From Asparagopsis taxiformis (taxonomy: Eukaryota; Rhodophyta; Florideophyceae; Bonnemaisoniales; Bonnemaisoniaceae), in assembly GCA_030407315.1 (NCBI GenBank), contig JALQPE010000519.1, positions 83,427 through 147,426 on the forward strand: 64,000 bases of DNA, read 5' to 3'. The translations under genes and the position numbers were made by a program. This document shows, piece after piece, positions 2,426 through 28,465 of this stretch; positions within the stretch are counted from its first letter, which is position 1; every line of letters starts with the position of its first letter. Under the pieces are notes generated by a model. That model searched no databases and was not told the origin of the DNA. It worked only from the letters and a program-made list of their open reading frames with translations.

Positions 2426-2440
2426 GGGGACAGGGGGGCC

Positions 2441-7000: not shown

Positions 7001-7178
7001 ACCTCTATCCATGAAAATGCTGGCCAGTTCGTTTACACGACCCGGTCGCACCAAACGGGAGGTCACTGTCGGAAACTTCACTTTGCGAGGATCAACTTGC
7101 ACTTTAGAAGAGCTGTACTGAGCAATAGTGATGCTTTTCTCTTCAGCAGAAGGAGAATTGCTCTTCTCCGCTGTAGTA
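4079..7178 (-). pseudogene. P2, ParB-like/2OG-Fe(II) dioxygenase fusion, split by transposon
   Basis: The body of a long gene paralogous to 9566-13708. A ParB-like domain comes first (helix RLVRPGRVNELASIF; CIDGSHRIAAL near 6945-6913). Then come a helical domain, a Glu/Ala-rich low-complexity linker with a basic segment (about 5100-5950), and a C-terminal domain like 2-oxoglutarate/Fe(II) dioxygenases with an HTD iron-binding pair near 4437. An in-frame TGA at 4235-4237 stops translation just before the segment with the distal ligands (DVYHGGMGF, then SVRYQ), which stays open to a stop at 4079. The 5' end is cut at 7177-7178 by the 21-kb transposon; the first codons are at 28441-28465. The frame continues by chance into the transposon end as far as 7393, but those residues are TIR-derived. 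Two disruptions suggest a pseudogene. Confidence 0.8.
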
Positions 7179-7480
7179 CGTCTGTGTTCTCGGAAATGGA
7201 CGCGGACGTCCACAACCTCTAGTACACCTAGTATTACTAGGCGGACGTCCATGTTCTCCAGTATTTTTGGATGTCCGCCTAGAACCGGACGTCCATGCGG
7301 TCTAGTACGTCTAGTATTACTAGGACGACATTCATTGTTTCTAGTACCACGGATGTCCCCCTTGGGATGGACTTCCGCCATGTCTATGTCCACCTAGGAC
7401 GGGCGCCGGTTCAGAAATTCAAAAATTTCGACCCCAGAAATTTCTGCCGCCGTGCTCGACATGGATGTCCGCATCCATCA
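7179..7480. repeat. Left TIR and subterminal repeats
   Basis: The TIR is 7179-7225. It and the adjoining subterminal DNA contain GGACGTCC at 7204-7211, 7243-7250 and 7287-7294, and several CTAGTAC/ACTAGGACGACA-like modules that recur inverted at the right end. Such subterminal motif clusters are typical transposase-binding regions in EnSpm-like elements. That role is inferred here. Confidence 0.82.
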
Positions 7481-7489
7481 CGGCGACCA

Positions 7490-8520
7490 CTCTATTTTTC
7501 CTTGTCGGTCGACTCCAATTTTGTCTTTAATTTTTTCATCCTCTCGCTCACACCCCCTTCCTGTTGGTGCTCACCTCCCCCGTACTGTACCTCAAACACC
7601 CCCAATACCACTCTAGCACGCATTTTCAGCTACCTATCCCCGCTTCCACGGTGCACACCTCCATTCCATACCTACTTTTCTGCTCTACTGTACAGATTTC
7701 GTATAACCAGTCCTCATACTACCTCAGAATAGGGAAAAACACCCCCTATCTCCTCGACCATGCTCTCCCCCAACACCTTTGCAACGTATTGTTCTTCAAT
7801 ACCTTCTCTCCTCTACCCTCAACCCCTCTCCTTCGCCCTCTACACAAACTTCCCCTGCAGCTTACTCTCCCAAAACCTCTCACTCCCCATCCCGTACCCG
7901 ACCTGCTCCACCCCTCCCTCCCTCAGCTGCTCCATGCCCCCACGCCATCCGCATCTTCGATACCGTATACACCACCACCGGCTCACGCTCCCGCTTCCCG
8001 CCGTCTCCCCAGAAACCTCCCCGCTCTGAAGCACATATCAACCCCCCACTTCGCACCCTTCCTCCCACTCCCCTCCCTCCCCAAATACAATAACCCCCTT
8101 CTTCTCCATCACATCCCCACTCACCACAGCCAGAACAGACGCCACCCCCTCCCCCTCTTTCTCCTCACTTTCCTAAAACCCCCTCCTCTCGGCGACTTCA
8201 ACCGCACCCTCCTACGGTCCCACCTAAACACCTCCTCCGCCCTCACTACCCCAACACCCCGCAGCGTCTCCCCAATCCCCATAATATGCTTGTCGGCACT
8301 CCTCTCCGAATCACACTCCATTCTAAACCCGCACTCCGTACATTTCCACCTCCCCCTGTACCATCCCAAGATTGCATCCCTCCACAGAACACATCCTCAT
8401 ACCACAGAAGAATTTTCTTCCTCTCATACCTCCTCCTTAAAACCTCCATCTGCTCCATGTAAATTTCGATGTAAATATTTTCTCCACTATGCAATCTCAA
8501 ACATGTATGAACGTATGCCT
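7490..8520. other. Strongly pyrimidine-rich stretch, gene-poor
   Basis: About 1 kb in which the plus strand is dominated by C and T. The bias removes stop codons and produces a 350-codon plus frame (7564-8616) of Pro/Leu/His/Ser composition that looks like a by-product. On the minus strand a short frame between about 8402 and 8121 contains WKCTECGFRMECDSERSADKH, a Cys/His arrangement that could be a decayed zinc finger. No complete gene can be supported. Confidence 0.45.
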
Positions 8521-8811
8521 TTCCGCTTTGTCACCCTTGAATATTGGTACTCATGTATTCATAAAATAGGGCCACCCACATCCCTATCCCGTTCTGCAAG
8601 CTTTACAAACCACTAGACGCATACTCCACAACTATACAACAAACACTACTCGCTATTTCAGACGACGCGGTACACAAGTAGCGTAGTCTCAACCTTCCGT
8701 GCAGCCTTCCCTGATGCGTACAAGTGCGAAACACGTCTAGACTACTACTACTACTACGATATAGTATATCAGAAGTGAGTGCGGGAATTTTCGGCACAGG
8801 AGATGCTGGGC

Positions 8812-9310
8812 CACCAAATTGATTTTTCGGAAATTTTAGAATTTCTGGGCTGGCCAGCAGTGCAATCGAGCTGGACATCCACCGGACGTCCATTTCAGGT
8901 TGGTCGTGAGAGAGTGGGGCGGGACCATGATGAAACAAGGACCAAAACGTGTCCCGGGCGTATTGAGCCTGAAATCGACCCTTCGCAAGACGCGATTTCG
9001 GCTTACAGATGGTGCTTATAGAAGCCAGTGATAGCCCCGATCGGGGCCGGCGGTCGGTTCCTGGGGCCGTTGTAGCCAAATTAGACACCCTGATTAGAAT
9101 TAAAATTTGGGCTATTCTCAAAAACATGCACATGTGAACATGTTTTTGAGATGGGGGTGTGCCGTACGGCACAATCGACCGCCCAAATCGATGTTTTTTG
9201 CAATATTTTTTTGTGCCCGAAATTGTAGAATTTCTGGGCTGGCCAGCAATGCATCTGAGCTGGACATCCACCGGACGTCCATTTCAGGTTGATCGTGTAT
9301 CGTGCACGTC
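8812..9310 (+). repeat. ~390-bp interspersed repeat, left array
   Basis: One partial copy and one nearly full copy of the transposon's internal repeat family. A full unit contains a stem CTCAAAAACATG/CATGTTTTTGAG, a perfect 16-bp palindrome TGTGCCGTACGGCACA (9158-9173), a CTGGGCTGGCCAGCA-type segment and ACCGGACGTCCAT, followed by a GC-rich spacer. The same units occur at 13845-14950, 16091-16270 and inverted at 20010-20275. Open frames across it on either strand are repeat-derived. Confidence 0.8.
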
Positions 9311-9565
9311 CACACATTACCGGAAGCAAGTAGGCGATGAAGCACGTACAAACCCAATTGTTCTGCTATTTCTACCATAGACCATCGAGTCTAGAGATGT
9401 GAGGGAATCGTCCTGGAAATCATGCTCCAACCCACGAGGGAATGGACAATCTAGTTTGAAAGCATGGAACGGAAGTGCATTATAGTAGGTTCATAGATTG
9501 GAAGTGATAAAGGAGATGATTATATTCTCGATAATTGTTTACCAAAGTAGTAGTTGTTAAGCTAT

Positions 9566-12500
9566 CTAGCCGTCGGAAAATTGTTCTTCGTCTTCGTCCT
9601 CATCATGTTCAGGATCTCCCGGCAGAATAGGCGTTATCGGCAACTGTGGAGTTGATCTGCTCAAGATGAATTCTTCACCCGCTGTGAGGGTTCTCTTCTT
9701 GGGAGCTTCTGTCGTCTTCATCCGCATGATTCCGAGCTGCCCTGTCTTCGGCCTACGATCTTTCTTGACCGGGATGGGAACAACTGTCTTGTGGCGAACA
9801 TTGACAGGTGCCGCTTGACTTTGCCTGGCAGACCGGCGCGGAGCATTGGCGATTACTTCTTCTTCGAATCCCAACCGCCTGATGAAACCAAACGAAACAT
9901 TGTCGGGAATCGGATACGACGCATTCCTGAAATACGTGTGATACCTCGTTGTCGTGTGTGACACAACTCTGTCGACATGCCCTGCCCCGGCATGTTGTAC
10001 ATGGCCGTGACCGATGAAGACTGAACGTGGCGGAACGATTACCTTCTTCAGCTTCATCGTCTTGGCGTACATATCTAATTCCAGCGCTTTGGAAAAGACG
10101 TACTTGTGGGACCCTGGACACACCCAGATAGGGAATGGGTCATCTCCGTTGGCAATAGCAAAGTAACCCGGAAGTTGATCTTTGCGGTCGCGAGGAGGAA
10201 CAGGGAAATCATTGTGTGGGACCTGCCGAGGACACCCCTTTCCCGTTATCAAAAACCGTCCCCCAGATGCCGGCATGACAAGTTTTTCTCCCGGTAAACC
10301 GCACTCCTCCAGCCCTATCAGCCGGACAAGGATTCCCAACCACACATCCAGCAGGGCTCGCCGCGTCACAAACTTGAACCGGTCGATATGCGTCTCATCG
10401 TTCTCGGCATAGTCAACCAGGCAGTGGCGCGTAGACGTGAAGCGAGCCGTCCCCTCATTCCGGTTCTTCTCATCTGTTTCATCGTCCCCCGTATTGACAA
10501 TGGGACTCCACAGCTGCCGGTTCCCAGGGTCCTTGTGCACCTCCTCCCCCTCCCATGTTCCCAAGAAGTACCGAAACAATTTCTGGTTAGGAATTTCTTC
10601 CATGAGACCCAAGTCAAATGGGAACTTGTCCGACGCATCGAGGTAGCTTACATCCGCGAAATTGTGCATCACCGTATACCCTCGCTCGTTGATTTCCGTT
10701 CGGCAATTGTGGAAGTACGCCATACCAGTGCCGGCCTCATACGAATCCTTCCAGCTTGTAGACATTCGCGCAACCTGGGCGAAGTCCAGCCTCGAGGGTA
10801 GAAACGTCGATGTAGGCTCACACATCGCCTTGGCAGCCATCTTCCACGCTGCGAAAAACATCGGATAGATGGTCTCGATCTCCAAAACAAGATGACGAGC
10901 CCGATGTTGTTCCGGAATATGCAGCCCCTCAAACACAGGGTCCATCGCCACTTGCTTCAAATACCTCACCTCTCTGCCCTCCTCATCGATTTCCACACTC
11001 TCCAATAACAACCTGAGCTCAATCGGGGGCAGACAGCCAACCCTCACCGATGCGATGACGTCCGCGGGACGCTGCGCCAGATGATGCCCTTCGGCTCGGT
11101 CTTTGACTTCGAAATCGTCGGGAAGAGATGGCATACGGTCGTCGAACAGGAGGTCGTGTTCCGAAGGAGAGTCACGAACGATGTAACCGTCTTCATCGAC
11201 TTCGACTCCTTCCGGAACAGTGAGTGTAATTGTCACTTCGCGGACCCCCTTGCTTTTGACATGGCCCTCATCTGCACTGTTGTTTTCTTCCTCGTCCGAA
11301 ACGTTATGGACAGATTCTTGGTTGGAGGGAGTCGCACCAGCACGTTGGTTATCTTGGGGGACAATCTCAACGGCAGAATCGGGGGAACGGGCGGAGTCTT
11401 CGTCAACCTCATCACCGGAAGCAGTGGCTTGTTGTTGATCGGTGGGTTTATCAACAACGGCCTGCTCTTCTTCCCCGGCGGATTGCTGTACCACAACCGG
11501 CTCTTCTTCCTCGAGGCGTGTGCTCCCCGTCGAGCGAAGTCGCTGTGAACGGCGGCGGATGCCATGCGAAGCAGGCTCATGTTCGACATTCCGCTGCTTC
11601 TTGTGAGTGAGTCTCACATTGGCAGCAGAAGGGCGGCGTTTGCGTCGAGCCTTAGTCTTCTTCTTCAATGTCGGATTGAAAAACTCTTTCAAGTTCGTTT
11701 CCAAATCCTGTAAACGCGTGGTTCTCCGTCGCATTCGAACCTCACTGCTCCGGTCGTCCCCTCTATACATTGCAATGGCATTGGTGAGATGCCATTGCAA
11801 CTCCTTCGGCTGCTTAACCGACCCAATTGCCATCTCTGTGCTCAGAAATGACTTGCGCATAATACTCTTTGGGCGCCCAAACGCAGCGTACAGAGAATTT
11901 GCTATTGCAGTCACGCGACGGACGTATGTATAGAAGTCGTTCACGTCAAAGCGTCCATCCGGACGTCCACCATGAGCAGGGTTCAAGTACTCCGAAAGAC
12001 CACGCAAGACGAAGACAAAGTTTTCTTCCAGCAACTCGCGCACTATCTTGTGGTCCAGGTGCGTTATCGCAATCTCGTTGCGGCGCTCGGAATTGTTGAG
12101 CTCACGCAACACTTCGTCGAGAACAGGATGCTTCAGCGTTGCTATAGCCAAACGCGTCCACCGCCGGGCCGTGTTCGTCGAATTCATCATCCCCATGAAC
12201 TGCGCCTCGAACAATGTTCGGATGACATCAGACTCACGCAAGTCGCCAGCGTTTTCCACGTTATTTGCAACAGCAATCGTACGGATGAACTGCTGGATGG
12301 ACGACAAGATTCGAACCAGGGAGCGCTCCGTCAGTTGCGTCCCAGTCGTATGGTTCGACTCTGCACTCTTGTGGATGATCTCATGAGGCTGAAGATCACT
12401 GTTGTCCTTGCGGCGAAGGTAGTACACATCCAGAGGCTGAGTAACCCAGCGCAAGCGGTTTGCGTCCTGTGGCAGCTTGGTTCTGTGCATACGGGTGAGG

Positions 12501-13564
12501 CGCGTGAAGTCATCGGCAATGCTATGCATAGCATTGAGACGATGCAGTCCGTCGATCACGGTCACGTTCGCATTGGCATGGAATTTGCCATTCTGGAACA
12601 GACGCGTGTCGGCGGGCAGATGCGTGTTCTGCGACCTCAGCACCGTCACAGTGATACGCGAAGAGCTCACATACCCCACAGCCAACATATTGTTGCGCAG
12701 GTCCTCCACGTGGTCTTCTTTCACATCCCGAAGGGTCACGGCCGGTTCCACTAGCTGCCTCACCAACACAGTCGCTCCTTCTCCGACGTAATCCGACGTC
12801 ACAAACTTGGGCACCGTAATTTGCGTCCCCTGCTGCTCACGAATGCTCTCCGCCACCTCCGGTTCGTCGTCCACCTCGGTTACGTCCTGCGTAGTAGCTT
12901 CGGTGACGTTGGAGCGAGCAGGGTGCTTCGTGCCTCCACTGGAGGCTCTGGCAGAGCGAGCAGGGTGCTTCGTGCCTCCACTGGAGGGTCTTGCAGAGCG
13001 AGCAGGGCGCTTCGTGCCTCCCGAAACCGGAATGGAGCGTGCTGGATGCTTCGTACCCTCCGAACCAGTGATTTCGCCTGCCGGACCGGTACTGGGCATC
13101 CGTCCCGAGCTGGCCTGGTTCGTCGCTGCGTTGAAGTTTGACGCTGCAGCAGGGGTACGAATGTCGCTAGGGCCATCCTCCGCAGCGGGGCGCATCATCC
13201 GAGTATCCCAAGGGTAAAACGCCGCGGCGTATGCTCCACCCATCGTCTCCGGCGGTCCCTCGGCGCCATCAAACATGTACGGGAACGGGAGGTCCTTGAA
13301 CTTGTCCTTAGTCGCAATGTTGCGCACGACGATATAGTCCGCCTCGTCGGTTTCCGGCAGCTTGTGGTTGTGCAGCGTGCGCGGAAGGCCAACATCGCCA
13401 CCAGCAGTGCTCACCGAAGCCGTCCCAATATGCACAGCCGCACCGTTCACGTCCGCAAACAAGTCAACATCGACGCCGCGCTTGAGACCGCGCGACTCCG
13501 CTGACGCGCTCACTTGATCGCCGCAAACCGTTGAAAACAAACTGCTGAAATGCGTATCCGCGAT
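9566..13564 (-). CDS. P3, ParB-like domain fused to 2OG-Fe(II) dioxygenase
   Basis: The frame is open from at least 13708, but there is no ATG until 13276. A strong candidate start context at 13564 reads ATC GCG GAT, one base from ATG. Counting from 13708, residues 218-267 are a Gly-Thr-Lys-x-Pro-Ala-Arg-Ser tandem repeat. A ParB/Srx-like domain spans about 310-480 (VIDGLHRLNAM at 384-394). A basic and acidic linker covers 640-830 (RRRSQRLRSTGSTRL). A 2-oxoglutarate/Fe(II) dioxygenase-like domain covers about 960-1285, with HND at 1165-1167, VCPGSHKYVF, a distal HVQHAGAG His at 1239 and a probable 2OG-binding Arg at 1255. The order HxD...H...R is that of phytanoyl-CoA- and TET/JBP-type oxygenases. 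A nucleic-acid or chromatin substrate is inferred from the ParB domain and the methyltransferase neighbour. The C-terminus is acidic. Confidence 0.82.
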   Translation of the reverse strand: MADTHFSSLFSTVCGDQVSASAESRGLKRGVDVDLFADVNGAAVHIGTASVSTAGGDVGLPRTLHNHKLPETDEADYIVVRNIATKDKFKDLPFPYMFDGAEGPPETMGGAYAAAFYPWDTRMMRPAAEDGPSDIRTPAAASNFNAATNQASSGRMPSTGPAGEITGSEGTKHPARSIPVSGGTKRPARSARPSSGGTKHPARSARASSGGTKHPARSNVTEATTQDVTEVDDEPEVAESIREQQGTQITVPKFVTSDYVGEGATVLVRQLVEPAVTLRDVKEDHVEDLRNNMLAVGYVSSSRITVTVLRSQNTHLPADTRLFQNGKFHANANVTVIDGLHRLNAMHSIADDFTRLTRMHRTKLPQDANRLRWVTQPLDVYYLRRKDNSDLQPHEIIHKSAESNHTTGTQLTERSLVRILSSIQQFIRTIAVANNVENAGDLRESDVIRTLFEAQFMGMMNSTNTARRWTRLAIATLKHPVLDEVLRELNNSERRNEIAITHLDHKIVRELLEENFVFVLRGLSEYLNPAHGGRPDGRFDVNDFYTYVRRVTAIANSLYAAFGRPKSIMRKSFLSTEMAIGSVKQPKELQWHLTNAIAMYRGDDRSSEVRMRRRTTRLQDLETNLKEFFNPTLKKKTKARRKRRPSAANVRLTHKKQRNVEHEPASHGIRRRSQRLRSTGSTRLEEEEPVVVQQSAGEEEQAVVDKPTDQQQATASGDEVDEDSARSPDSAVEIVPQDNQRAGATPSNQESVHNVSDEEENNSADEGHVKSKGVREVTITLTVPEGVEVDEDGYIVRDSPSEHDLLFDDRMPSLPDDFEVKDRAEGHHLAQRPADVIASVRVGCLPPIELRLLLESVEIDEEGREVRYLKQVAMDPVFEGLHIPEQHRARHLVLEIETIYPMFFAAWKMAAKAMCEPTSTFLPSRLDFAQVARMSTSWKDSYEAGTGMAYFHNCRTEINERGYTVMHNFADVSYLDASDKFPFDLGLMEEIPNQKLFRYFLGTWEGEEVHKDPGNRQLWSPIVNTGDDETDEKNRNEGTARFTSTRHCLVDYAENDETHIDRFKFVTRRALLDVWLGILVRLIGLEECGLPGEKLVMPASGGRFLITGKGCPRQVPHNDFPVPPRDRKDQLPGYFAIANGDDPFPIWVCPGSHKYVFSKALELDMYAKTMKLKKVIVPPRSVFIGHGHVQHAGAGHVDRVVSHTTTRYHTYFRNASYPIPDNVSFGFIRRLGFEEEVIANAPRRSARQSQAAPVNVRHKTVVPIPVKKDRRPKTGQLGIMRMKTTEAPKKRTLTAGEEFILSRSTPQLPITPILPGDPEHDEDEDEEQFSDG
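12907..13057 (-). repeat. Coding minisatellite in P3
   Basis: Four tandem copies of a unit encoding about 16 residues, consensus GGTKHPARSARxSS. They give a basic, flexible tract ahead of the ParB-like domain. Two copies (near 12915-13000) are almost identical at the DNA level, pointing to recent unit duplication. Confidence 0.8.
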
Positions 13565-13844
13565 GGTTGTTGAGTTGGAAAGGAAAAGAGATGGTTGACG
13601 TTGACGTATTCGAGTGATGTGGATGGTATTTTTCACGTTGAAGAATGGTCGTGAACGCCAATCGCTGGAAATAATAACACAATACAACCGAAATTTTGTT
13701 AGGTACACACTTATCGTGACCGCTGGAATGCAAGACAGGCAATCGAGATGTGAGTGTCCGTTCGGAACGGGCCCGAGTCGGGCTCTCGAAACCTGACGAG
13801 GTGGCGTGAAGCAGGCAGTGTCCTTGATGTGTAATGTGTTAAAA

Positions 13845-14950
13845 TTAAAGCTGTCAAGCTAGGCGGCTTTTGGGGCGGCTGCGAGCACCCCTTTATCCGG
13901 GGAACACCCTGATTTGAGCTAAAATTTGGGCTATTCTCAAAAACATGCACATATGAACATGTTTTTGAGATGGGGGTGTGCCGTACGGCACAATCGACCG
14001 GCCCAAATCGTTGATTTTTGCAATATTTTTTGTGCCCGAAATTTTAGAATTTCTGGGCTGGCCAGCAGTGCATCTGAGCTGGACATCCACCGGACGTCCA
14101 TTTCAGGTTGGTCGTGTGCTGCCTACATCCACGCATTGCAGCAACTAAGCAGGCGGGTTCACTACTAATATAAAGTGCACGGAATATGAGTAACGTGATG
14201 GGTGAGTAGTGTTTGTCGTGAAGGAGTAAGGCGGGACCATGATGAAACAGGAAAAAGATGTCACCCTAGCATAACTTAGGCTTAAAGCCTGGAATCGACC
14301 CTCGTAAGACGCGATTTAGGCTTACAGTTGGTGCTTACAGAAGCCAGTGATGGCCCCACTCGGGGCGGCGGCCGGTGCCTGGGGCCGTTGTGGCCAAATT
14401 AGAAACCTTGATTTGAATTAAAATTTGGGCTATTCTCAAAAACATGCACATGTGAACATGTTTTTGAGATGGGGGTGTGCCGTACGGCACAATCGACCGC
14501 CCAAATCGATGTTTTTTGCAATATTTTTGTGCCCGAAATTTTAGAATTTCTGGGCTGGCCAGCAGTGCAATCGAGCTGGACATCCACCGGACGTCCATTT
14601 CAGGTTGGTCGTGAGAGAGTGGGGTGGGACCATGATGGAACAAGGACCAAGACCTGTCCCTGGCGTATTAAGCCTGAAATCGACCCTTTGTGAGACGCCA
14701 TTTAGCCTTACAGTTGGTGCTTACAGAAGCCAGTGACAACCCCACTCGGGGCGGCGGCCGGTGCCTGGGGCCGTTGTGGCCAAATTACACACCATGATTA
14801 GAATTAAAATTTGGGCTATTCTCAAAAACATGCACATGTGAACATGTTTTTGAGATGGGGGTGTGCCGTACGGCACAATCGACCCGCCGAAATCGTTGAT
14901 TTTTTACAATTTTTTTGCTGCCCGAAATTCTACAATTTCTGGGCTGGCCA
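13845..14950 (+). repeat. ~390-bp interspersed repeat, central array of three units
   Basis: Three direct copies of the internal repeat, with equivalent points at 13928, 14427 and 14813 (spacings 499 and 386). Each has the 16-bp palindrome TGTGCCGTACGGCACA (13977-13992, 14476-14491, 14862-14877). The outer left part (13845-13915: AGCTGTCAAGCTAGGC and GCGAGCACCCCT) is matched only by the inverted copy ending near 20275. With the left array at 8812-9310 it also brackets P3 as direct repeats. Confidence 0.8.
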
Positions 14951-14959
14951 GTAATGCAA

Positions 14960-15505
14960 TAGCTATCTGCTCTAAACCGATTCTAACAAGCAGAAAGAAT
15001 CCTCTCCATGACGATGCTCTCGAATTGAGTGCAATGCAACGGACTCCCTCCAAGAGAACGTTAAAGCATCGTCTTTTCCAAGGCATTTCCGTACGAAAAA
15101 TAATCGAAAAACATATTTGACTTTAACCTAACAGCTATCGCGAGCACCGTACTCAGCTATATTTCCTCTGTAATTTCCTTCCTCCAACCAATCAATAGCC
15201 GCTTGGTCACAGGCTTAAAAGCCTTCCACTATCTGTCCTATCCATCGAAGACCCTCGGAAGACCCTCGGAGGGTTCGATCCAGGCCTTGATCACCCATGA
15301 TGGGTGTGCAACCCGAGAAAATGAAAATGGAACATATTGCGACAGGGACGAGATATCATTCAATGAAAGAGAAGTTCTCTTTCGTTTACTTTTTTCTAAC
15401 AAGATTCTAAACGTCTACAAACCCTATGTCGTCCGTCCGTTTTCATCCCGGAGAGATGTGGATGTGAGGTAAGACGCAGTGGTGATGTTGTGTTGATTCC
15501 CACAG
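14960..15505. other. Non-coding spacer inside the transposon
   Basis: About 550 bases with no convincing coding frame. A small direct duplication (GAAGACCCTCGGA twice near 15247) is the only structure noted. Confidence 0.45.
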
Positions 15506-15830
15506 ACGGAGGTGGAGGAGGTGGCTACGGAGGAAGCCTGGAGAACTTCTCCGGTACTGACATCTCACATGTTGAGAACATGTGAGATGTCAGTACCCAT
15601 GGATGAGAAGAAACACATGTTCAGGTCCGGTTCGGATATTCTTTCCATTAACGGAGGTGGAGGAGGCTATGGTGGAAGCCTGGAGAACATGTGAGATGTC
15701 AGTACCCATGGATCACAAGAAAACATGTTGAGGTGCGGTTCGGATATTCTTTCCATTAACGGAGGTGGAGGAGGCTATGGTGGAAGCCTGGAGAAGAATA
15801 GAGTAGTCCTATACCCATGGATCACAAGAA
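15506..15830. repeat. Glycine-codon-rich tandem repeat with embedded hairpin
   Basis: Three copies of a unit of about 108 bp that begins ACGGAGGTGGAGGAGG (near 15506, 15651 and 15759) and would encode GGGGGYGGSLEN-like peptide. The first unit holds a perfect hairpin at 15553-15597: 21-base arms, starting GGTACTGACATCTCACATG, around the loop GAG. No long frame spans the repeats, so this may be the remains of a Gly-rich gene or a simple minisatellite. Confidence 0.65.
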
Positions 15831-16084
15831 GACGTTGTTGGGCTCCTTTTCGAAGCCCATTCGTCTCTTGAATAAATTTAGCACCCAAATCATATACGAT
15901 TGCCGAGTTGACACCCCGTATGTCTCGTTGGTAGAAATAGCAGGGGTTCCACCACTCAGCTGGCGGGAAGTAGTTACTGATTATATGAGATATGGCTTAG
16001 CTCCCGCCAAAACCGATAGCTCTGGGCTCAGGTTCTCCAAATGTGGTTATACGAATGTGTTCTGACAATGCTAGAAGACGAATA

Positions 16085-16275
16085 TCTGCATCCTGATTTG
16101 AATTAAAATTTGGGCTATTCTCAAAAACATGCACATGTGAACATGTTTTTGAGATGGGGATGTGCCGTACGGCACAATCGACCGCCGAAATCGATGTTTT
16201 TTGCAATATTTTTTCTGCCCGAAATTGTAGAATTTCTGGTCTGGCCAGCAATGCATCTGAGCTGGACATCCCCAT
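16085..16275 (+). repeat. Internal repeat copy left of the methyltransferase gene
   Basis: A single copy of the interspersed repeat with the stem, the 16-bp palindrome at 16161-16176 and the CTGGxCTGGCCAGCA segment. It ends about 330 bp before the methyltransferase ATG and is inverted relative to the copy at 20010-20275 on the other side of that gene. Confidence 0.8.
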
Positions 16276-19794: not shown

Positions 19795-20009
19795 GGTCAC
19801 GAAAGATGTTTTCATTTCGACTACAAATAAAGCTACGTTCCAGAGTTGAAGTATATCATATAATGCAGCATGTCCAGCCACCATTAGTCCAGGGTGAAAC
19901 CTATTCAGCAGTACTCGCCTGTCAAAAACCAATCGTTCACACTCCAGGTGCACTTCGTCCGAGCAGTGAACCTGACTGCTTGGATGCTGTTATGCGTGCA
20001 GATGCAAAA

Positions 20010-20275
20010 TACACGACCAAGTTGAAATGGACGCCCGGTGGATGTCCAGCTCAGTTGCATTGCTGTCCAGCCCAGAAATTCTACAATTCAGGGCAGAAAA
20101 AATATTGCAAAAAACATCGATTTCAGCGGGTCGATTGTGCCGTACGGCACACCCCCATCTCAAAAACATGTTCACATGTGCATGTTTTTGAGAATAGCCC
20201 AAATTTTAATTCAAATCAGGACGTCTTCCGGACATAGGGGTGCTCGCGGCCTAGCTCGACAGCTGTAATTGTACC
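20010..20275 (-). repeat. Internal repeat copy right of the methyltransferase gene, inverted
   Basis: An inverted copy of the interspersed repeat. It includes the 16-bp palindrome at 20136-20151 and, beyond it, the GCGAGCACCCCT and AGCTGTCGAGCTAGGC segments also present at 13845-13915. It lies between the methyltransferase stop and the next gene's ATG at 20449. Confidence 0.82.
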
Positions 20276-20448
20276 TCATTAAATACTGTTGATGACTGCC
20301 TACCGTATACAATCTGGGCTGTTGGCGTATTCTCCGGTACTTGACCTGAACGTTCATCGCAGACCGTTGTGGTTACCGACACTATACAGCAATCTTTTTT
20401 GTATCTCGTGCAACTCAATCGTTCCATCGCTTCCGGGAAGGCTTCATT

Positions 20449-22733
20449 ATGCCGCCGCGTATTGCGAAGAAAGCTCCAAAGCCTCCGGGCCTCCAGAAAA
20501 ACCGGTCAGCAGCTGCTGTATCGAGTGCCCGACAATCCCGTGCGAAGAAGCGGTCTGGGCCTACCGGCAGCATTGAACCGCGGTCCGGTAGTCGCAAGAC
20601 GGACCGGCGCAGAACTGGGGATCCGCAGCGAGAAAGTGAGGAAGGAGGAACGGCGCGGAGAGAGATGGGGCTTGACCGAGGCAAGCGTGCTCGCAGGGAC
20701 AGTGAACATCATGATGATGACATGATAGTGGCTCAAAACATGTTGGAATTGCGGCAGAGTGCTATGGCAAAGGTAGTTCCTCCCGGGTTGGCAGATGCGG
20801 AGGTGCTGCAGACGGAGTCCCAGCCGGGGGTTCCGAGACACTGGAGGCTGTGACCCCCACTGCGCCAACTATGCCGAGTACATCAGCCCCAGCAGGTAAT
20901 GCAGTCAGGGACCCGAGGATAGCGGCAAGGGATGTTGTTTCTGAGCAACGTTCACAGGATGCCAACTATCATCGGCGGTCAGGTGGTACTGAGGGGAGAG
21001 AGCAGCCGGAGTGCGGGCCTCGTCACAACAGACTGTCATTGGTGCCAAATATGCGCGTAACGCCCCCGCGACGTCAGGCTATTGCCGATGGAGGACATCA
21101 TAATCCCGATAGCGTGCGAGATGGGGGGACGGTGAGGGCAGAGAGGTTGCATCCGCCGGAATCCATCGATTTAATGGCGAGTCGCATCAATGCGCAGAAG
21201 AAGAAGATCGCGGAGCTGGAAAAAAAAGTGTTTAGCCAGGACATAGCAAACAAGGCGCTCACCACGGAGATAGTTGCGTTGGAGGCTAAGGTGAAGACTC
21301 TGCAGGCGGAAAATGCCAGCCTTACTGCAATTGCGAGAACAGGTAGAATCAGTGATCACGGTGGCGGTAAGTCGAAAATACAGAAAGCCATTCCTGTGAA
21401 ATACCTTGGAGTTCTTAGGGCGGTTGAGGAAAACCTGACAAAGTGGTGCAAGAACGAGACTATGGAGCTGGACCCTATAGCGGAACAAACGCAGAGACGT
21501 TGGACTGGACGTACCATCGAGGTAGAGCCGGTAGAAGGGACACTTTGGAGCGAAAACGGTGTAGGATATATTGCTACCCCTCCGGGCTATATCATCAAGA
21601 ATCTGCAGTGGTATACACCTTCGTACAGGGACGAGAGTGATCTGCTGAATGACTTGGTGCGACACGTACTGCGTCAAAGTCCGTGGTGTGATGTGTTTTC
21701 CGATGAGGAGCAGCGTGTGTGCTGTCAAGAGGCTGTGGCGGGGAGCAAGGAATTGAAAGTGAAGGTGACGCAGAAACTGTCCGACGTGATGAGTGCACGG
21801 AAGCGTAATGCGAGGGACAGATTGTTCGGTTCGCTGGGGTACACGAAATTAATGTCTAGATGCACGATGCTGACGACGCGAGCTGAGATGGACGAGCGAG
21901 AGGATCAAAAGCGCGAAGCGTCTGAGAAGCTTTTGAAACGGGAAAGCAACGGTGATTTGGATATGGGGAGGTGGCGAACGGCACCGTTCTCAGAGCTGCG
22001 ATACAGCAAAGGCATGGTTCCTGACAGCTTCGAAATGGAAGTGAATGGTGATGCATGGTTTAACAACCGAGTAGCTGTGAATGTGCTGGACATCTTCAGG
22101 GGTTATTCGATACGACCAGAACAAGTAATGGACATAGAGACGAGCATACTAACGCTGGCGCGCCTGGATGCTTGGCTAGTGACTACTGTGGAGTGTTTGG
22201 ATGAACCGAAGGGGAAAGGAGGTGCACGGCAGAAGGAGTTTACAAGGCGGTACAGTCAATATGTGGGGGTAGCTTTTCAGCAATTAGTTGGTATGGTGGT
22301 GTACTGCATGTCTTGTCTCCAAGGCTCGCAAGCAAGGGAAGAAACGGACGTTGTCGAGAGCGAACAGCGGACTAGTGCACAGTCACGGCATGTGTTTGCA
22401 AGCCGTACTGTGACGAGAGAGGCTGTTGAAGTGTGGCAAAGCGGAGAGGGGTCTGGAATTGTTCATGTCGTTGATGATGTAAACCGCTGCTCATCACTTG
22501 TTCTAGTGTCCGAGGATTGGATTCAATCGCATATTACGTCAAACCTCGGTGCTGTAATGGATTGTGTGATTGCGCAAGGACTAATTGGCGCAGAACTTTT
22601 CGTCGTTGACCCATATGCTGGACACCTGAGTGCAAACCTGAATGTCGAAATCAATGCCCCACAGTATGGGGGCATGGAGCGGCGCCATGCAGCCACTGCT
22701 GATAACGGTTTTGGCGTAATGGAGGATGGTTGA
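20449..22733 (+). CDS. Coiled-coil protein of unknown function, transposon-borne
   Basis: I do not recognise this family. An ATG at 20449 opens a very basic Arg/Lys/Ser-rich segment (to 20853, one frame). It continues in a second frame that reads PAGGSETLEAVTPTAP across the junction and runs to 22733. The frame change near 20770-20850 may be a one- or two-base indel or an unrecognised short intron. The long part has a coiled coil encoded at about 21176-21340 (regular Leu/Ile/Val heptads in NAQKKKIAELEKKV and onward), then about 460 residues of mixed alpha/beta composition with GRTIEVEPVEGTLW and RHVLRQSPWCDVFSDEEQ. It converges on the transposase gene, with 77 bp between their stops. A DNA-binding accessory role in transposition is a guess from the basic N-terminus and coiled coil. 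Confidence 0.65.
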
Positions 22734-22810
22734 AATTAGTGCAGTAAATGTGACGTTGACTAGAAGGCTTATCATGTAGTACATTATCAATAGAGTGCTG
22801 CGATTTAGAT

Positions 22811-25800
22811 TTATTCTTCTTCATTATCATCTGTGAACTGGTAATCAGTGTTGGTGTAGAAGCGGTTGAGATAGAAACGGTGGTCCGACCAGTGCATTTG
22901 TTTCGTAAATGGCTTGACTGGAAAGTTACTTCGTACGATGTGCACGGTGCCAGATATAGTAGATGCAGGAATGAGGTCAAACCAAGGACCACCTGCACTG
23001 TGGGATGCAGTGTCATTGCTGTCAACGGATCCGTTGTCCGGGTCCCATGTGGACCACTTTAAACAAATGCACCCAAGTGATTTTTCCACAGCGGTTTTTG
23101 GGGCAAAGCAGGTCATATACTGAACGAAAGCGAGTTCTACAGGTTGAAACAGGTTTGGAGACTGCAGGCGTACCAGTGCCAGGACGCGCCCTACCCATAT
23201 GGTTCTGTAGTCATCGGCAGTTCCGGAGATGACGACAAAGGAGTACTGCGATCTCTTTGCGGGGCCGAATGATGAAGTTGCAAAGACGCGCTGCTGCTTG
23301 TGCCTCGACACGTTTGTGGGGCGAAGCATGCCACTGTGCGGGTCAAAGTCGTCGGCATCTGGGACGTACCCTCCCATGACGTAGGCGGACTTTACCACGG
23401 TGACGGAAATGTCCATGTCATGTATTGGAGGGCCTTCTGCCGTGGCGCGCAGTCTAGCGAGGGTGAGGAACGCTTGTGCAGCTGTGTCACCGAGTTGCTG
23501 GAATAGCGTTATGGTGCCAGACGGGAACGAGGAGTTGTGCAGAGGCAAAAGAGTGGCAGGATCGGGCTGTCCGTCGATATCTGCAACGAGGAGGGTTGCA
23601 TCGGGCAGCAGGGAGGCAAAGTCGTGCAGTGCAACGGTGAATCCGTCGCGAACGAGTACTGCACCGTCTGTGGGCGATATCATGCGTGGGTTTCCCAATG
23701 TGTTGGATGGGGTGTGACCAGTTGGAGTGGCCAAGGAGAATTCCATGTGGCGAATAGTCTCTTCCATGGCTGTGGAGCGCCTTCGAGAGGTTTTCCTATA
23801 ACTCTGTTTGAACAGAAGATGCGAGTGTTCGTAGGGGCCTGCATCAATGTGTTCCAGGGCGCCATATCTCTGCAAGTCACCGGGAAGATGGTCTAGAAGA
23901 TGGAACTTGAAAGTTTTGAGACCTGTGGTGTGGAATGGGCCGAGGGTGGAGAGCATTGATTGTTTGAAATAGGAAATGGAGTTCTGGAGGCTTTCTAGTT
24001 CGGCGGCAGTCCAGTGCTTGATGCGACCGCGTTTCATGACCCATGCGACGAGGTCAGAGTATTGCGTGCAGATGGAAGTGAGGGGGGCTGTCTCTACTTC
24101 GTCACAGCATGTGTCAATGAATGCTGCGATGAAAGGGAACACCATGTCGACATGGTGATAGTCTTTGGCTGCGAGCATGCCGCGTATGCCGTCCTCCGTG
24201 AAGAGGCCGTTCAAATTGGTGCCCTTCTCACCCTTGGAGAAGTCGACATGAAGACCGGTGATGTAGTAGTCGCGTTCGATAGCGGACAGAATGCTGTTTG
24301 AGCCGGCGAGGATGGATTTTTTCACCTTCTTGAAGGTGCGAGGTGTCCCGGAATGGGAGGCAGTGGTGGTGGTGAGGTCTGGGGAGCTGAGGCGGTGGAC
24401 AATGCACTGTTTGATGAGCTTTGAGATGCCGAGGTGGAGATTGTGCAGAGGCTCGAAGGAGAAAATGTTGTAGGGGTCTAGGGGACTGTTGGTGGGTAAA
24501 AGAGCGGTCGATTCGAGGACAGAGTGTTGTTCGAGGAGGGAGAGAGCTTCGAGCGGAGCAGTTGTATGCTCCTGAGCGCTCTCTTGGCGTGCAGAGCGTG
24601 TATCATCGAGGGAGCGGGGCTGGTGTGGCGCGCTGGATTCAAGTTGAGTGGCGGGGATGTAGCAGCGGTGGCAGGGATGTGTGGTGGTAGTGCTGTTGCG
24701 AGTGCATGACAGCTCTTTGGCCTCTGGAAAGTCGCAGCAATAATTGGCTAGGATGGGAAAGCATTGGCGGGCAGTTGCAGTGGAGTCTGTGCAGGGGAAC
24801 CCGGAAGAGAACGCGGTGGATAGGGACGAAAACACTTTTTCGAGTGCTTTATGAAGAATATCAATTTTGCGAGCGCGACTAGCAGAACTAGAGGTTGTCG
24901 GCATTTCATCACCGAACAAGGCGTTGGACGAAGGGTTAACAATGTACGGAAGATACCCGACGATGGTGAGGCCGGTACGGATGCAGTGGCGACGGAGGGG
25001 GGCGGAGAAGTTGAGCAGTGTGACGTGTATGGGGTATGCGACGATTGCGGAGCTCTTGAGGCTTGTGCTGCTCTTGTCGGAGTACACTTGGAGGAGGCCG
25101 GCAAAGGAGGAAGCGGTGGGATCAGTTTCCTCTGCCCATACGACCTGTGGATCTTCCGAGAGCTGCACGCGCTGTCTAGTAACCTGGTGCAGCGTTTTCG
25201 CGAATTCTGTGTGTAGGGGATGAGAAAATATTGCGGTGCCGTCTGGGGCGGTCTGTGGGGAGGGGTGGAAGAGAGTATTTTGGTCGTTAGCCAGTGCTAA
25301 CTGCCTGCGGAGCATGTCGACTGGGTCGCGGAGGTACAGCTGTGCCGAGTACTTACCAGTTTTGTCTGGAATGATGTGGCTCTTGTAACCTTCGGTGCGG
25401 AAATGTGTTTCGACCATGGAAGCGGTAACGTGGCGACATTCTTCTACGGTGCGAACGGCGCTGTTGAACTTTTCTAGGGAGAATGCGGGGTCTTGTACGA
25501 TGGTGATGACTTCGCTCACGCGGCCAGCGCCGGCCTTGTACTCGAGGGTTGTGAGACTGGCGGCGAGGGATTGCACGAGGAGGTCTGCGCGGGAGGGGGT
25601 TGAGGTTGGTGGCAGTGGAGCGTCACAGGGTGAGTCGCTGGAGGAAGCACGACCAGATTCTGGGTCTGGGGAGCTGGGTTGCGGGGAATCATGGTCGCCG
25701 TTTCGAGCAGGCTCATGGGTGACGGCAGGGACACGAGCGTTGTTGAAATGTTGGGGAGAGGGGTTGAAACGGTAGCGACACGTTCGCTCATGCAGCGCGA

Positions 25801-25852
25801 GCGCATAAGCATCTACGCAGTAGTAGAAGCACCCTTCATACTTGCATTCCAT
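22811..25852 (-). CDS. Plavaka/EnSpm-like transposase
   Basis: Intact 1013-residue frame from an ATG at 25852. The first 25 residues form a C2HC finger (C3-x4-C8-x12-H21-x3-C25), as is usual in Plavaka transposases. A DDE-like core follows: VYSDKSST around D259 with YPIHVTLLN downstream; CFPILANYCCDFPEAKEL around D374, equivalent to the DTPE segment of the family; a PCHRC knuckle at 393-397; FEPLHNLHLGISK at 466-478; and GPYEHSHLLFK at 672-682, the probable catalytic Glu region. These features and their order match the fungal Plavaka/EnSpm group. It is the most likely mobilising enzyme of the 21-kb element, since it lies inside it and nothing else there looks like a transposase. Confidence 0.82.
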   Translation of the reverse strand: MECKYEGCFYYCVDAYALALHERTCRYRFNPSPQHFNNARVPAVTHEPARNGDHDSPQPSSPDPESGRASSSDSPCDAPLPPTSTPSRADLLVQSLAASLTTLEYKAGAGRVSEVITIVQDPAFSLEKFNSAVRTVEECRHVTASMVETHFRTEGYKSHIIPDKTGKYSAQLYLRDPVDMLRRQLALANDQNTLFHPSPQTAPDGTAIFSHPLHTEFAKTLHQVTRQRVQLSEDPQVVWAEETDPTASSFAGLLQVYSDKSSTSLKSSAIVAYPIHVTLLNFSAPLRRHCIRTGLTIVGYLPYIVNPSSNALFGDEMPTTSSSASRARKIDILHKALEKVFSSLSTAFSSGFPCTDSTATARQCFPILANYCCDFPEAKELSCTRNSTTTTHPCHRCYIPATQLESSAPHQPRSLDDTRSARQESAQEHTTAPLEALSLLEQHSVLESTALLPTNSPLDPYNIFSFEPLHNLHLGISKLIKQCIVHRLSSPDLTTTTASHSGTPRTFKKVKKSILAGSNSILSAIERDYYITGLHVDFSKGEKGTNLNGLFTEDGIRGMLAAKDYHHVDMVFPFIAAFIDTCCDEVETAPLTSICTQYSDLVAWVMKRGRIKHWTAAELESLQNSISYFKQSMLSTLGPFHTTGLKTFKFHLLDHLPGDLQRYGALEHIDAGPYEHSHLLFKQSYRKTSRRRSTAMEETIRHMEFSLATPTGHTPSNTLGNPRMISPTDGAVLVRDGFTVALHDFASLLPDATLLVADIDGQPDPATLLPLHNSSFPSGTITLFQQLGDTAAQAFLTLARLRATAEGPPIHDMDISVTVVKSAYVMGGYVPDADDFDPHSGMLRPTNVSRHKQQRVFATSSFGPAKRSQYSFVVISGTADDYRTIWVGRVLALVRLQSPNLFQPVELAFVQYMTCFAPKTAVEKSLGCICLKWSTWDPDNGSVDSNDTASHSAGGPWFDLIPASTISGTVHIVRSNFPVKPFTKQMHWSDHRFYLNRFYTNTDYQFTDDNEEE

Positions 25853-26448
25853 GTCGAGTTTTGACGCAAAAGGGAGGATTGCGAGCTGAACAGGGGAGAC
25901 TGTGCCGTCCAGATGCGACCAATTTTATTTTTGTGGTGCTTTCGAGACTTGGAATGTAACGTGTTCGTAGTTTTGTGGGTAGTAGTTTTGTGCTCACTCC
26001 AGCTGACATCCCAACGGTGGAATTTAACCAAGAGTTCAATCATTTCCAACTGTTACATCACATTGCGTGCTGGCAACGTGTGCATGGAAGGACGAACGAC
26101 TGCCTGGGACATGAATTTTCAATTAATTCATTTGTAATAATAAACTTTTTTATTTCCAAACTTCGTGGAATCTGAATGTGCTTTACAGCGGATATGCCAC
26201 GGATCATGTAAGGAAAGCAAATGGATTCTCATATATATGATTATATGTTTATATTCGTTGTTCTCGATCCGGATCTCATTGTTCGGGGAATCAGAGACCA
26301 TGGCTTGGGCCATACTCAATCTCACTGCCGGCGATGATTTCGAGTATGCACAGCAAGACTTAAGCGGACGCAGAAAGCTGTCCGGTCGACGCCGCAGGCT
26401 CCACTCCGCCCTCATCACCGACTGATATTCTTTGACCAACTTTGCTTT
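25853..26448. other. Upstream region of the transposase gene
   Basis: About 600 bases, AT-rich in the middle, holding the presumed minus-strand promoter of the transposase. No clear gene or repeat is visible. Confidence 0.4.
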
Positions 26449-26486
26449 GTACGTGCGCGAATCTTGATCAAGATTCGCGCACGTAC
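26449..26486. repeat. 38-bp perfect palindrome
   Basis: A perfect inverted repeat with no loop. The left half is GTACGTGCGCGAATCTTGA and the right half its exact complement. It sits between the transposase upstream region and a tandem-repeat block. Confidence 0.85.
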
Positions 26487-26499
26487 CTTCGTTCCATCC

Positions 26500-27565
26500 T
26501 CTACCCTCGAGGGTATGCGTTGAGGGAAGCGTGGGTTTTGAGTCTGACTATTTCCGTTGATGCGATATTTTTCATGGGAAGCCTGTTGACTGATAGTGTG
26601 TATTGAGCAGAGGATGGAAGAGAGGTACGTGAAGTTTTGAAAGTATGCTGTGAGGGAAGGTTGGTTTTGAGTCTGACTGTTGTGGTTGATTCCGATGTTG
26701 TGTAGATGATGCAGGAATGTTGATGACGGAAGGTAAGTTTCATTGAGTGCCAAGATGTGCTTTGCGAAGATATGGACTGCTGACTATGATTATTATTCAT
26801 TGCAAGGTTTTTGGATCATGGTTTGTATTGTGTGTAGGATGGATGAGAGGTACATTTGCGAGTTCTCAGGGTATGTAGCGAGGGAAACGTTGGTTTTCAA
26901 TCTGACTGTTGTGATTGATTCCGATGTTGCGTAGGTGATGGAGGAATAGTGATGACGGAAGGTAAGTCACATTGGGCACCCAGACCGGTTGTGCGAAGAT
27001 GCGGAATGCTGACTACTTTTCTTGGCTACACGATTACGTGATTTATGGTTTTTATTGTGTGCAGGATGGAACAGGTAAGGTAAGTGTGCGAGTTTTGAAA
27101 GTAAGCAGCGAGGGAAGGTTGGTTTTGAGTCTGACTATTTCCGTTGATGCGATATTTTTCATTGGAAGCCTATTGAGTCATGGTGTGTATTGTGTGGAGC
27201 GAAGGTAAGTGTGCGAGTTTTGAAAGTAAGCAGCGAGGGAAGGTTGGTTTCGGGTCTGACTGTTGTGGTTGATTCCGATGTTGTGTAGATGATGCAGGAA
27301 TGTTGATGACAGAAGGTAAGTTTCACTGAGCACCAAGACTTGTTTTGCGAAGATATGGACTGCTGACTTTGATTATTCATTGCAAGGTTTTTGGGTCATG
27401 GTTTGTATTTTTTGTAGGATGGATGAGAGGTAAGTAAGGAAGTTTCTAGGATATCTGTCGTGGTAAGCGTTGCTTTTGAATCTGACTGTTGTGGTTGATT
27501 CTGATGTTGTGTATGTGATGCAGGAGTGGTGAAGCAGGAACGGCAGGACTCAAGGAGAGTGAAGA
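26500..27565 (+). repeat. Degenerate ~227-bp tandem repeat block
   Basis: A recurring phrase CTGACTGTTGTGGTTGATTC or a close variant occurs at 26673, 26902, 27256 and 27482 (about 227 bp apart, with one 354-bp step). A related phrase CTGACTATTTCCGTTGATGC is at 26544 and 27131. Each unit also has a GAAGGTAAGT-like and a TTGCAAG/GTGTAGGATGG-like sequence resembling splice signals. No long frame is present. Confidence 0.7.
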
Positions 27566-27878
27566 AGGGATGTAGGAAGATGGGGAATGAAGCTGTGAGG
27601 TGTTTCTGGTATGTGTATATTTTGGGGCATACGATAGAAGTGAGAGTGGGTTTCAAGTGGTGTAAGATTTTGCTGACCATGTTCGTGTTTGATGTCTTGA
27701 TGATTTAATGGGCTGGGGTGGTGTCGAGGAAAGCGGGGATGGAATTGGGAAGGAGCGGATTTTTTGTAATCTAGGTCGTGAGGGTTCTTGAAGTATGTGC
27801 GGATGGTGGTGCATGGCGTTCGGATGGTAGGGAGAACGCGATAGTGAGGGAGATGGGTGATCGACGATATGCTGACAG

Positions 27879-28015
27879 GTATTTCATATTCTGGCTGGAT
27901 ACGTATTTCGTATTCTGGCTGGATACATATTCCGTATTCTGGCTGGATACGTATTTCCTATTCTAACCGGGTATTTATTTCCTATTCTGACCAGATGTGT
28001 ATTCCCTATTCTAGA
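27879..28015 (+). repeat. ~21-bp minisatellite near the right end
   Basis: About six copies of a unit like TATTCTGGCTGGATACGTATT. The first three are nearly identical and the later ones diverge (TATTCTAACCGGGTATTTATT and so on). Confidence 0.8.
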
Positions 28016-28136
28016 GAGACGTATTGTATACGAGCAGTTTCCTAAATGAAAGAATAAAATACGGTCCGATATGGGCCCTGAATTTACCATCCGCTGTAAT
28101 TTCTTCCCTCCCGGTTTTCGCTGATATATTGTATAC

Positions 28137-28309
28137 TGGATGTCGGGTCCTAGTATTCCGCCCAACGTACTAGAGAAAGTGGATGTCGGGTCCTAGTATT
28201 CCGCCATATGTACTAGAGAAAGTGGATGTCGGGTCCTAGTATTCCGCCATATGTACTAGAGAAAGTGGATGTCGGGCCCTAGTATTCCGCCATATATACT
28301 AGAGAAAGT
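28137..28309 (+). repeat. 43-bp subterminal tandem repeat
   Basis: Four copies of a 43-bp unit beginning GTGGATGTCGGGTCCTAGTA and ending GTACTAGAGAAA, with exact 43-bp spacing where measured (28179 and 28222). The unit shares CTAGTAC and TACTAGGAC modules with the left subterminal region 7226-7400. Confidence 0.85.
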
Positions 28310-28440
28310 GGACGTCCGCATCCAAAAAATTTTTATTTTTTTTGGACGCGGACGTTCATTTGTTCTAGTAAATCTTGGGGCCGACTAGGACCCGTACTAG
28401 AGAGACTGGACGTCCGCGTCCACTTCCGAAAACACAGACG
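28310..28440. repeat. Right TIR and adjoining GGACGTCC sites
   Basis: The right TIR is 28394-28440 and is the inverted partner of 7179-7225. GGACGTCC occurs at 28310-28317 and 28408-28415. A TGGACGCGGACG-type inverted repeat surrounds an A/T-rich centre at about 28322-28342. Confidence 0.85.
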
Positions 28441-28465
28441 TATTCATGATACTATTGTCTCCCAT
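28441..28465 (-). pseudogene. P2 start codon fragment, right side of the insertion
   Basis: On the minus strand an ATG at 28465-28463 reads MGDNSIMN and continues in frame into 7176 and below once the transposon and one TA are removed. The upstream in-frame stop is about 45 codons further on, with no other ATG before this one, so 28465 is the best candidate for the original start. It links the 28.4-kb flank to P2 at 4079-7178. Confidence 0.72.

Follow-up and report, generated by a model that had tools for sequence, protein, structure and literature searches.

A 21-kb multicopy Plavaka transposon of Asparagopsis taxiformis with a predicted adenine methyltransferase–SET fusion and a ParB-like/putative oxygenase gene

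We found a multicopy DNA transposon of 21,262 bp in a 64,000-nucleotide stretch of the red alga Asparagopsis taxiformis (assembly GCA_030407315.1, contig JALQPE010000519.1, positions 83,427 to 147,426); this whole stretch is called the window here. The transposon (the focal element) has terminal inverted repeats (TIRs), a Plavaka transposase and cargo of a DNA- and chromatin-modifying type: a DNA methyltransferase (MTase) fused to a SET domain (MTase-SET), a ParB-like protein with a putative 2-oxoglutarate (2OG)/Fe(II) oxygenase part (ParB/2OG), and a coiled-coil protein. Earlier, a 21.3-kb transposon with TIRs and such cargo had been proposed from the nucleotide sequence (the original prediction), and this description holds. 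Tentatively, and with a confidence somewhat short of even, we read the focal element as an autonomous-type Plavaka (CMC clade) transposon that may carry a self-targeted anti-silencing kit and may share this locus with at least one related element. Table 1 collects the coordinates of all features.

Ends, copies and gene content of the transposon

A recount of the 47-bp inverted ends gave 41 equal positions, exactly as first reported, and the termini of the element read CGTCTGTG...CACAGACG. A 34-bp end pattern has 1353 forward and 1383 reverse matches (2,736 altogether) with up to two mismatches in the 141.5-Mb assembly, and the same pattern read backwards, used as a control, has none in it. Among the first 100 end matches listed there are 12 facing neighbour pairs, and 11 of 12 combine one left and one right variant. 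Six pairs with mixed ends are 10.0–12.0 kb long, a 10.4-kb pair has two right ends, and longer facing pairs measure 15.6, 20.0, 20.8, 27.2 and 29.1 kb. End pairs of 29.1 kb and 25.5 kb lie on C100 and C221, respectively. As a rough estimate, which counts single, nested and broken ends as well, about 1,350 elements of 10–20 kb would make up 13–27 Mb, or about 10–20% of the assembly.

We read 12 end pairs: that of the window and those designated C12a, C14, C49, C90, C11, C338, C769, C12b, C52, C67 and C88. Equal 2-bp flanks are present in eight of them, namely TA (window, C338, C769 and C52), AA (C12a), TG (C14), GA (C49) and TT (C90). These varied flanks indicate that the target-site duplication (TSD) is 2 bp long and of varied sequence rather than TA-specific, and that the element proper therefore spans 7179–28440. 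Insertion specific to TA is ruled out, as an end pattern free of TA yields pairs flanked by AA, TG, GA and TT as well as TA; the TA bias appears only with TA-containing queries (37 of the 38 ends retrieved by them). The C769 copy sits in another copy of the focal Plavaka gene, and the uninterrupted copy of this gene in the window serves as the empty site. Compared with it, the occupied site has gained the element and a second TA, and the junction is otherwise unchanged. The boundaries first proposed are thus borne out by the multicopy ends, the 2-bp duplications and this site comparison, but the restriction of the duplication to TA had to be given up.

Both the ParB/2OG and the MTase-SET genes are found in three of the 12 pairs (window, C52 and C88). 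C52 is a full copy with all four genes in the same order, in pieces with 89–99.7% amino acid identity; its MTase-SET gene lies in one frame, and its Plavaka and ParB/2OG genes in three frames each. In C88, of which about half of the length and the far end were covered, ParB/2OG is found in three pieces (87–95% identity) together with residues 1–357 of the MTase-SET frame. The cargo order therefore recurs in C52 and, as far as it was read, in C88, but seven of the 12 pairs (C12a, C14, C49, C90, C11, C338 and C769) hold none of the four genes as long frames. Ends that mostly lack the genes, which the original prediction had named as counter-evidence, are thus literally in the majority. However, these seven copies share about 2 kb of the left end, about 2 kb of the right end and internal repeats with the focal element, and C769 additionally shares a piece extending into the Plavaka region. 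These shared end stretches and repeats fit an origin of the gene-free copies as non-autonomous derivatives better than misplaced boundaries.

When the window is compared with C52, MTase-SET has a ratio of nonsynonymous to synonymous substitution rates (dN/dS) of 0.17, based on 11 changes; the ratio for Plavaka is 0.31, based on 10, and that for ParB/2OG is 0.51, based on 83. Compared with C12b, the ratios are 0.55 for MTase-SET, 0.60 for the coiled-coil gene (with one stop) and 0.38 for Plavaka, and ParB/2OG gives 0.65 against C88. With copies as young as these, such values can give no more than a hint of selection.

In C67, a 12.5-kb stretch (about 2445–15008, with L077–L079 joined) occupies the ParB/2OG position. 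It contains frames of 1122, 1681 and 651 amino acids and looks retrotransposon-like by eye. C12b has one of the C67 breakpoints (window 9254) but no insertion.

Cargo proteins and palindromic repeats

The MTase-SET fusion, as first called, is confirmed by matches to PF01555 and PF00856, the latter with 29.5 bits against a cut-off of 22.4, and its MTase half is of the type that makes N6-methyladenine (m6A). Like the ParB/2OG and Plavaka frames of the focal element, its frame is open and intron-free. A search with the catalytic half retrieved 38 proteins at E ≤ 0.01; P0001 is 99% identical and the other 37 are 24–37% identical. According to precomputed annotation, 19 of these 37 distant relatives have both Pfam domains and 18 have the MTase alone. 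The window protein was put into an alignment with 30 of these relatives (P0008, P0017 and P0037–P0041 were omitted). In these 31 sequences, both prolines of motif IV (TDPP) are invariant and its T and D nearly so; the D and the first G of motif I are invariant and its F and T nearly so; and of the residues read as SET landmarks, G929, Y933 and N1012 are invariant and Y1057 is nearly so. The family profile matched nine distinct PDB sequences over about 65 positions, including DpnA, CcrM, RsrI and MboIIA. These matches point to a bacterial-type beta-class N6-adenine MTase as the predicted enzyme. A cytosine MTase was considered as well and is ruled out by the profile matches to adenine enzymes.

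A word search from the first 500 residues found only P0001 among the candidates scored, which were those sharing most words. A viral origin was considered as well and not adopted; of the 600 MTase-SET pattern matches listed from a viral contig collection, 18 were confirmed, each over just 43–128 residues. Three relatives from JGI sources (P0037, P0039 and P0041) have a very different, alanine- and glycine-rich composition, which suggests that the MTase-SET family extends well beyond relatives of the host.

The oxygenase part of the ParB/2OG protein contains HxD, PGSH and GHGxxxHAGAG motifs and an R, a set that we take to resemble the PhyH-type 2OG oxygenases. Among the matches listed, at least four proteins are ParB/2OG relatives, with 34–39% identity across one third of the query. 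In six sequences, one of them a gene of the second element described below, the DG.HR motif keeps its D, G, H and R without exception. Five aligned sequences likewise have invariant columns for HND, for P and S in PGSH, for GHG...HAGAG and for RYH; among these columns are the H, D, H and R of a putative HxD...H triad with distal R, which in the 2OG-Fe(II) oxygenase superfamily sits in a double-stranded beta-helix. A DndB match below threshold (E 0.064) occurs in one of four ParB/2OG relatives. Of 17 pattern matches in the viral contig collection, none was confirmed as a ParB/2OG relative. The relatives P0002 (ParB/2OG) and P0027 (MTase-SET) both report a longest contig of 15726 bases, and P0003 (ParB/2OG) and P0031 (MTase-SET, with PF01555 only) both report one of 7918. 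This exact agreement in two of four ParB/2OG relatives suggests linkage of the two genes in other genomes. Since P0002 and P0003 appear closely related, as do P0027 and P0031, the linkage probably represents one lineage.

The match to PF18759 bears out the Plavaka-like transposase. In this protein, a candidate C(2)C motif (CHRC) starts at residue 418 and a candidate H(3-4)H motif (HLLDH) at 675. The coiled-coil cargo protein has only weak coiled-coil matches, below the curated Pfam cut-offs; its gene is split into two overlapping frames in the window and mostly forms one in C52. A Pfam scan of five focal-element frames found no recombinase.

A 36-bp near-palindrome (palA) recurs in the focal element, and five of its six copies lie before genes. 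It is present in all nine fetched elements searched, in 3–7 copies each with up to five mismatches, and seven of these elements are gene-free; 50 shuffled palA patterns gave no match in the window. The perfect 38-bp palindrome of the Plavaka gene is identical in C52, has two paired changes that keep the palindrome in C12b, is rearranged in C67, and was not found in the other eight copies searched. The window contains 13 palindromes with a score of at least 13, and 12 dinucleotide shuffles of it contain none. Nine of the 13 are copies of pal2, a 39-bp palindrome with 3 + 5 + 4 = 12 copies (up to six mismatches), often 112–114 bp apart. These copies form one array in each of three intergenic regions of the second element.

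The second element and its surroundings

What looks like a second, divergent element takes in L080:6805–10000 (L080 is the 10 kb preceding the window), window 1–7178 and window 28443–33745. When the flanks are joined at the focal insertion, they form one open frame of 1,026 codons (gene B). Such a restored frame had been expected of an interrupted host gene; the frame is there, but the gene is itself of the ParB/2OG cargo type. Insertion into an ordinary host gene is ruled out, as the interrupted gene is ParB/2OG-type and stands beside further cargo-type genes. Gene B is 24% identical to the focal ParB/2OG over 238 residues of the 2OG part. Beside gene B, on the same strand, lies a second ParB/2OG gene (gene A), whose two parts are in different frames. 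Genes A and B are 31% identical over 409 columns of the ParB part and 37% over 357 columns of the oxygenase part; gene A has the H, D, H and R of the oxygenase motif, and the frame of gene B stops short of the final H and R. The SET gene of the second element keeps the linker of the MTase-SET family in the alignment, and no MTase half is visible in it. The 1288-residue protein resembles CMC-type transposases by eye; it has no Pfam match, and its match to the focal Plavaka protein is insignificant (E 0.19). Judged from these sequence features, the focal element looks like an insertion nested in a second element of the same class.

A common repeat, 72% identical, links L080:6657–6960, at the start of the SET frame of the second element, with a non-coding-looking stretch at window 38710–39019. 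Retrotransposon frames near the locus, copia-type (RVT_2, rve) and RVT_1, are located at 42027–46504, 59038–63877 and 35839–37599. Near copia-type frames, a frame of 357 amino acids (window 46931–48004) has a DUF273 match (PF03314, 4.1e-31).

Table 1. Features of the focal and second elements (window coordinates unless prefixed with L080)
Feature	Position	Strand	Evidence or remark
Gene A of second element, ParB-like part	902..2494	-	2OG part differently framed (about window 676 to L080:8901)
SET gene of second element	L080:6805-7698		PF00856 5e-7, 30.5 bits
pal2, 5 copies, second element	2785..3828	.	
ParB/2OG gene B of second element, cut by focal element	4235..7178	-	5' part resumes at 28443
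TSD, left copy, TA	7177..7178	.	flank reading
Focal transposon, 21,262 bp	7179..28440	.	TIRs, TSD, copies, one empty/occupied site comparison
Left TIR, starts CGTCTGTGTT	7179..7225	+	41/47 positions equal to right TIR
palA copy, 3' of ParB/2OG gene	9116..9151	.	near-palindrome, 13-bp perfect arms, imperfect centre
ParB-like (DGxHR) + putative 2OG/Fe(II) oxygenase part, 1430 codons	9566..13858	-	conserved in P0002-P0005
palA copies at 13935, 14434 and 14820, 5' of ParB/2OG gene	13935..14855	.	
45-bp palindrome, 5' of MTase-SET gene	15553..15597	.	
palA copy, 5' of MTase-SET gene	16119..16154	.	
N6-adenine-type DNA MTase fused to SET (predicted)	16606..19794	+	PF01555 2.9e-15, PF00856 1.1e-6
palA copy between MTase-SET and coiled-coil genes	20158..20193	.	
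Coiled-coil protein, two overlapping frames	20350..22733	+	single frame from about 20611 in C52
Plavaka transposase, 1037 amino acids	22811..25924	-	PF18759 2e-24, above curated cut-off; CHRC, HLLDH motifs
Perfect 38-bp palindrome, 5' of Plavaka gene	26449..26486	.	
43-bp subterminal tandem repeats, right end	28137..28316	.	
Right TIR	28394..28440	-	41/47 positions equal to left TIR
TSD, right copy, TA	28441..28442	.	flank reading
pal2, 4 copies, second element	29277..29706	.	
Transposase-like protein, 1288 amino acids, second element	29821..33687	-	CHIC motif by eye
48-bp palindrome, some 10 bp 5' of the transposase-like frame of the second element	33698..33745	.	

Possible mechanism, alternatives and known systems

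Starting from the observed ends, duplications, gene content, family homology and repeats, we infer the following course of events from the identified domains. The Plavaka transposase would move DNA with CGTCTGTG...CACAGACG ends in trans, including the gene-free derivatives, and produce the 2-bp duplications. The ParB-like part would recognise the palindrome-like repeats of the element itself, which are intergenic and in most cases precede a gene. At these repeats, the oxygenase part would remove a silencing base mark. MTase-SET would add m6A and methylate a histone lysine, so that the promoters of the element become permissive, and the palindrome of each family would serve as its address. A bolder version, which we regard as rather unlikely, is that such elements represent a widespread, unrecognised class of eukaryotic giant DNA transposons with a complete self-addressed chromatin programme, in which a ParB-like palindrome reader is joined to a base-mark eraser and accompanied by a fused m6A/histone-lysine writer. 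If true, the programme would keep a family and its non-autonomous derivatives with the same repeats open, and the rest of the genome not.

Several observations weigh against an anti-silencing kit of this kind or against parts of the evidence for it. The ParB/2OG protein has no Pfam match, including none to a ParB family, and its oxygenase part has no meaningful match in PDB, the profile search giving one match at E 2.3. AlphaFold models are of low confidence (mean predicted local distance difference test score, pLDDT, of 39 for the whole protein and 33 for the oxygenase part), although the ParB-like part is modelled better (48–81 by block over residues 21–170). Of the fusion with a 2OG dioxygenase in the original prediction, the conserved motifs stand, but a TET/JBP identity is unsupported; the assignment is motif-based, and we call the oxygenase putative. 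Two of the 12 pairs, C12b and C67, hold the MTase-SET, coiled-coil and Plavaka genes, partly broken, without ParB/2OG. Broken genes also occur elsewhere: Plavaka and ParB/2OG in C52, MTase-SET and the coiled-coil gene in C12b, several in C67, and ParB/2OG in C88. The coiled-coil gene has a dN/dS of 1.5 between the window and C52 (12 changes), with no purifying selection. Among the palindromes, the 45-bp one at 15553 is absent from the 11 other copies searched, and palA is not represented among the 13 strong palindromes, only one copy reaching a score of 10. The 2-bp flanks are unequal in four of the 12 pairs (C11 AC/TA, C12b TG/TT, C67 TT/AT and C88 TG/GT); recombination between copies could account for this. 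Finally, no inverted ends of the second element were found, and its mobility is thus putative.

Alternatively, the cargo might be regulatory, with the ParB-like protein acting as an autorepressor or copy-number control on operator palindromes and the enzymes restraining the element or acting on the transposition complex. In bacterial Tn10, Dam methylation of the ends controls the access of the transposase. The operator-like position of the palindrome-like repeats, 5' of most genes, and the m6A-type MTase would suit this explanation, which we nevertheless hold to be unlikely: a purely repressive kit leaves thousands of ends unexplained, as well as the retention of the oxygenase-like part.

The genes could also have been captured and merely carried, so that only the transposase and the ends matter. 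The seven gene-free copies, the two more without ParB/2OG and the broken genes are in line with this, and unrelated transposons elsewhere are known to have captured TET/JBP and SET genes (PMC12730594). However, the same gene types recur in the very different second element at the locus, ParB/2OG and MTase-SET apparently share contigs elsewhere, the residues of the MTase motifs are fixed or almost fixed across 31 aligned sequences, and the dN/dS of MTase-SET is 0.17, though from 11 changes only; we thus consider mere carriage improbable. Lowest of all we rate the chance that the palindromic repeats are independent miniature inverted-repeat transposable elements or hairpin terminators unrelated to the ParB-like protein. 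They are indeed repeated and palindromic, and palA is imperfect; yet in many arrays they are regularly spaced (pal2 at about 113 bp, palA at about 500 bp) rather than scattered, the two elements have different palindrome sequences, and each of the nine end-sharing elements searched keeps palA.

As for known systems, the VANC protein of Arabidopsis is an element-encoded anti-silencing protein that reads element-specific motif arrays (PMC5735166). By analogy, an element-encoded protein, tandem non-coding motif arrays and a family-specific pairing of the two would be common to VANDAL/VANC and the focal element (PMC5735166). The VANDAL motifs are short (9 bp) and non-palindromic, unlike the focal palindromes, for which binding is a prediction (PMC5735166). 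The focal element does not belong to this group, as its transposase is Plavaka and not MuDR-type with VANC. To our knowledge, VANC has no oxygenase or MTase. The MTase half of the fusion is like the bacterial beta-class adenine MTases in its profile and in its TDPPYN and D-F-GT motifs; unlike DpnA, CcrM, RsrI and MboIIA, it is found in a eukaryotic assembly, is fused to SET and is borne by a transposon. Starships are defined by a DUF3435 tyrosine recombinase captain at one end, and the focal element, whose five scanned frames show no recombinase by Pfam, is not one of them. In the giant Plavaka repeats of Amoebidium, many genes are tyrosine recombinases, of which none was identified in the focal element, and MTase-SET and ParB/2OG genes go unmentioned in the passages considered (PMC11244446).

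Plavaka transposons belong to the CMC clade, with a 2- or 3-bp duplication and with two motifs, C(2)C and H(3-4)H, located after the second D and before the last E (PMC12730594). Some fungal Plavaka transposons carry TET/JBP genes, for which an escape from silencing has been proposed (Kojima 2025, PMC12730594). The focal element shares with them the Plavaka transposase, the 2-bp duplications, a dioxygenase-type cargo, here putative, and a suggested role in evading silencing (PMC12730594). It differs in that its cargo consists of an m6A-type MTase-SET and a ParB-like/2OG protein; the word ParB is absent from the main text of that paper (PMC12730594). PlavakaA elements end in TGT..ACA and PlavakaB elements in CATCA..TGATG (PMC12730594); the focal termini fit neither subgroup, so the element is filed with Plavaka by its transposase only. 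SET is also encoded by HarbingerS and MuDR transposons of Phytophthora (cited in PMC12730594). These are likewise DNA transposons with a SET histone methyltransferase, but they have other transposases, and the parts of that source covering them mention no DNA methyltransferase fusion (PMC12730594).

In several eukaryotes, permissive chromatin bears both m6A and trimethylated lysine 4 of histone H3 (H3K4me3), and in Acanthamoeba, m6A persisted under inhibition of H3K4me3 (PMC12695648). The MTase-SET fusion would offer a bacterial-type route to eukaryotic m6A, separate from the MT-A70 family. We found no equivalent of MTase-SET, ParB-like/2OG and palindrome arrays in one element among the matches listed from the open-access literature, in which not all searches were aimed at this combination. 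As SET and TET/JBP genes are already known in DNA transposons (PMC12730594), it is the combination of an m6A-type MTase-SET, a ParB-like/2OG protein and palindrome arrays that appears to be new. Known eukaryotic transposons carry single genes thought to counter silencing; a writer, a putative eraser and addressable repeats in one element would make the self-opening of chromatin testable with purified parts.

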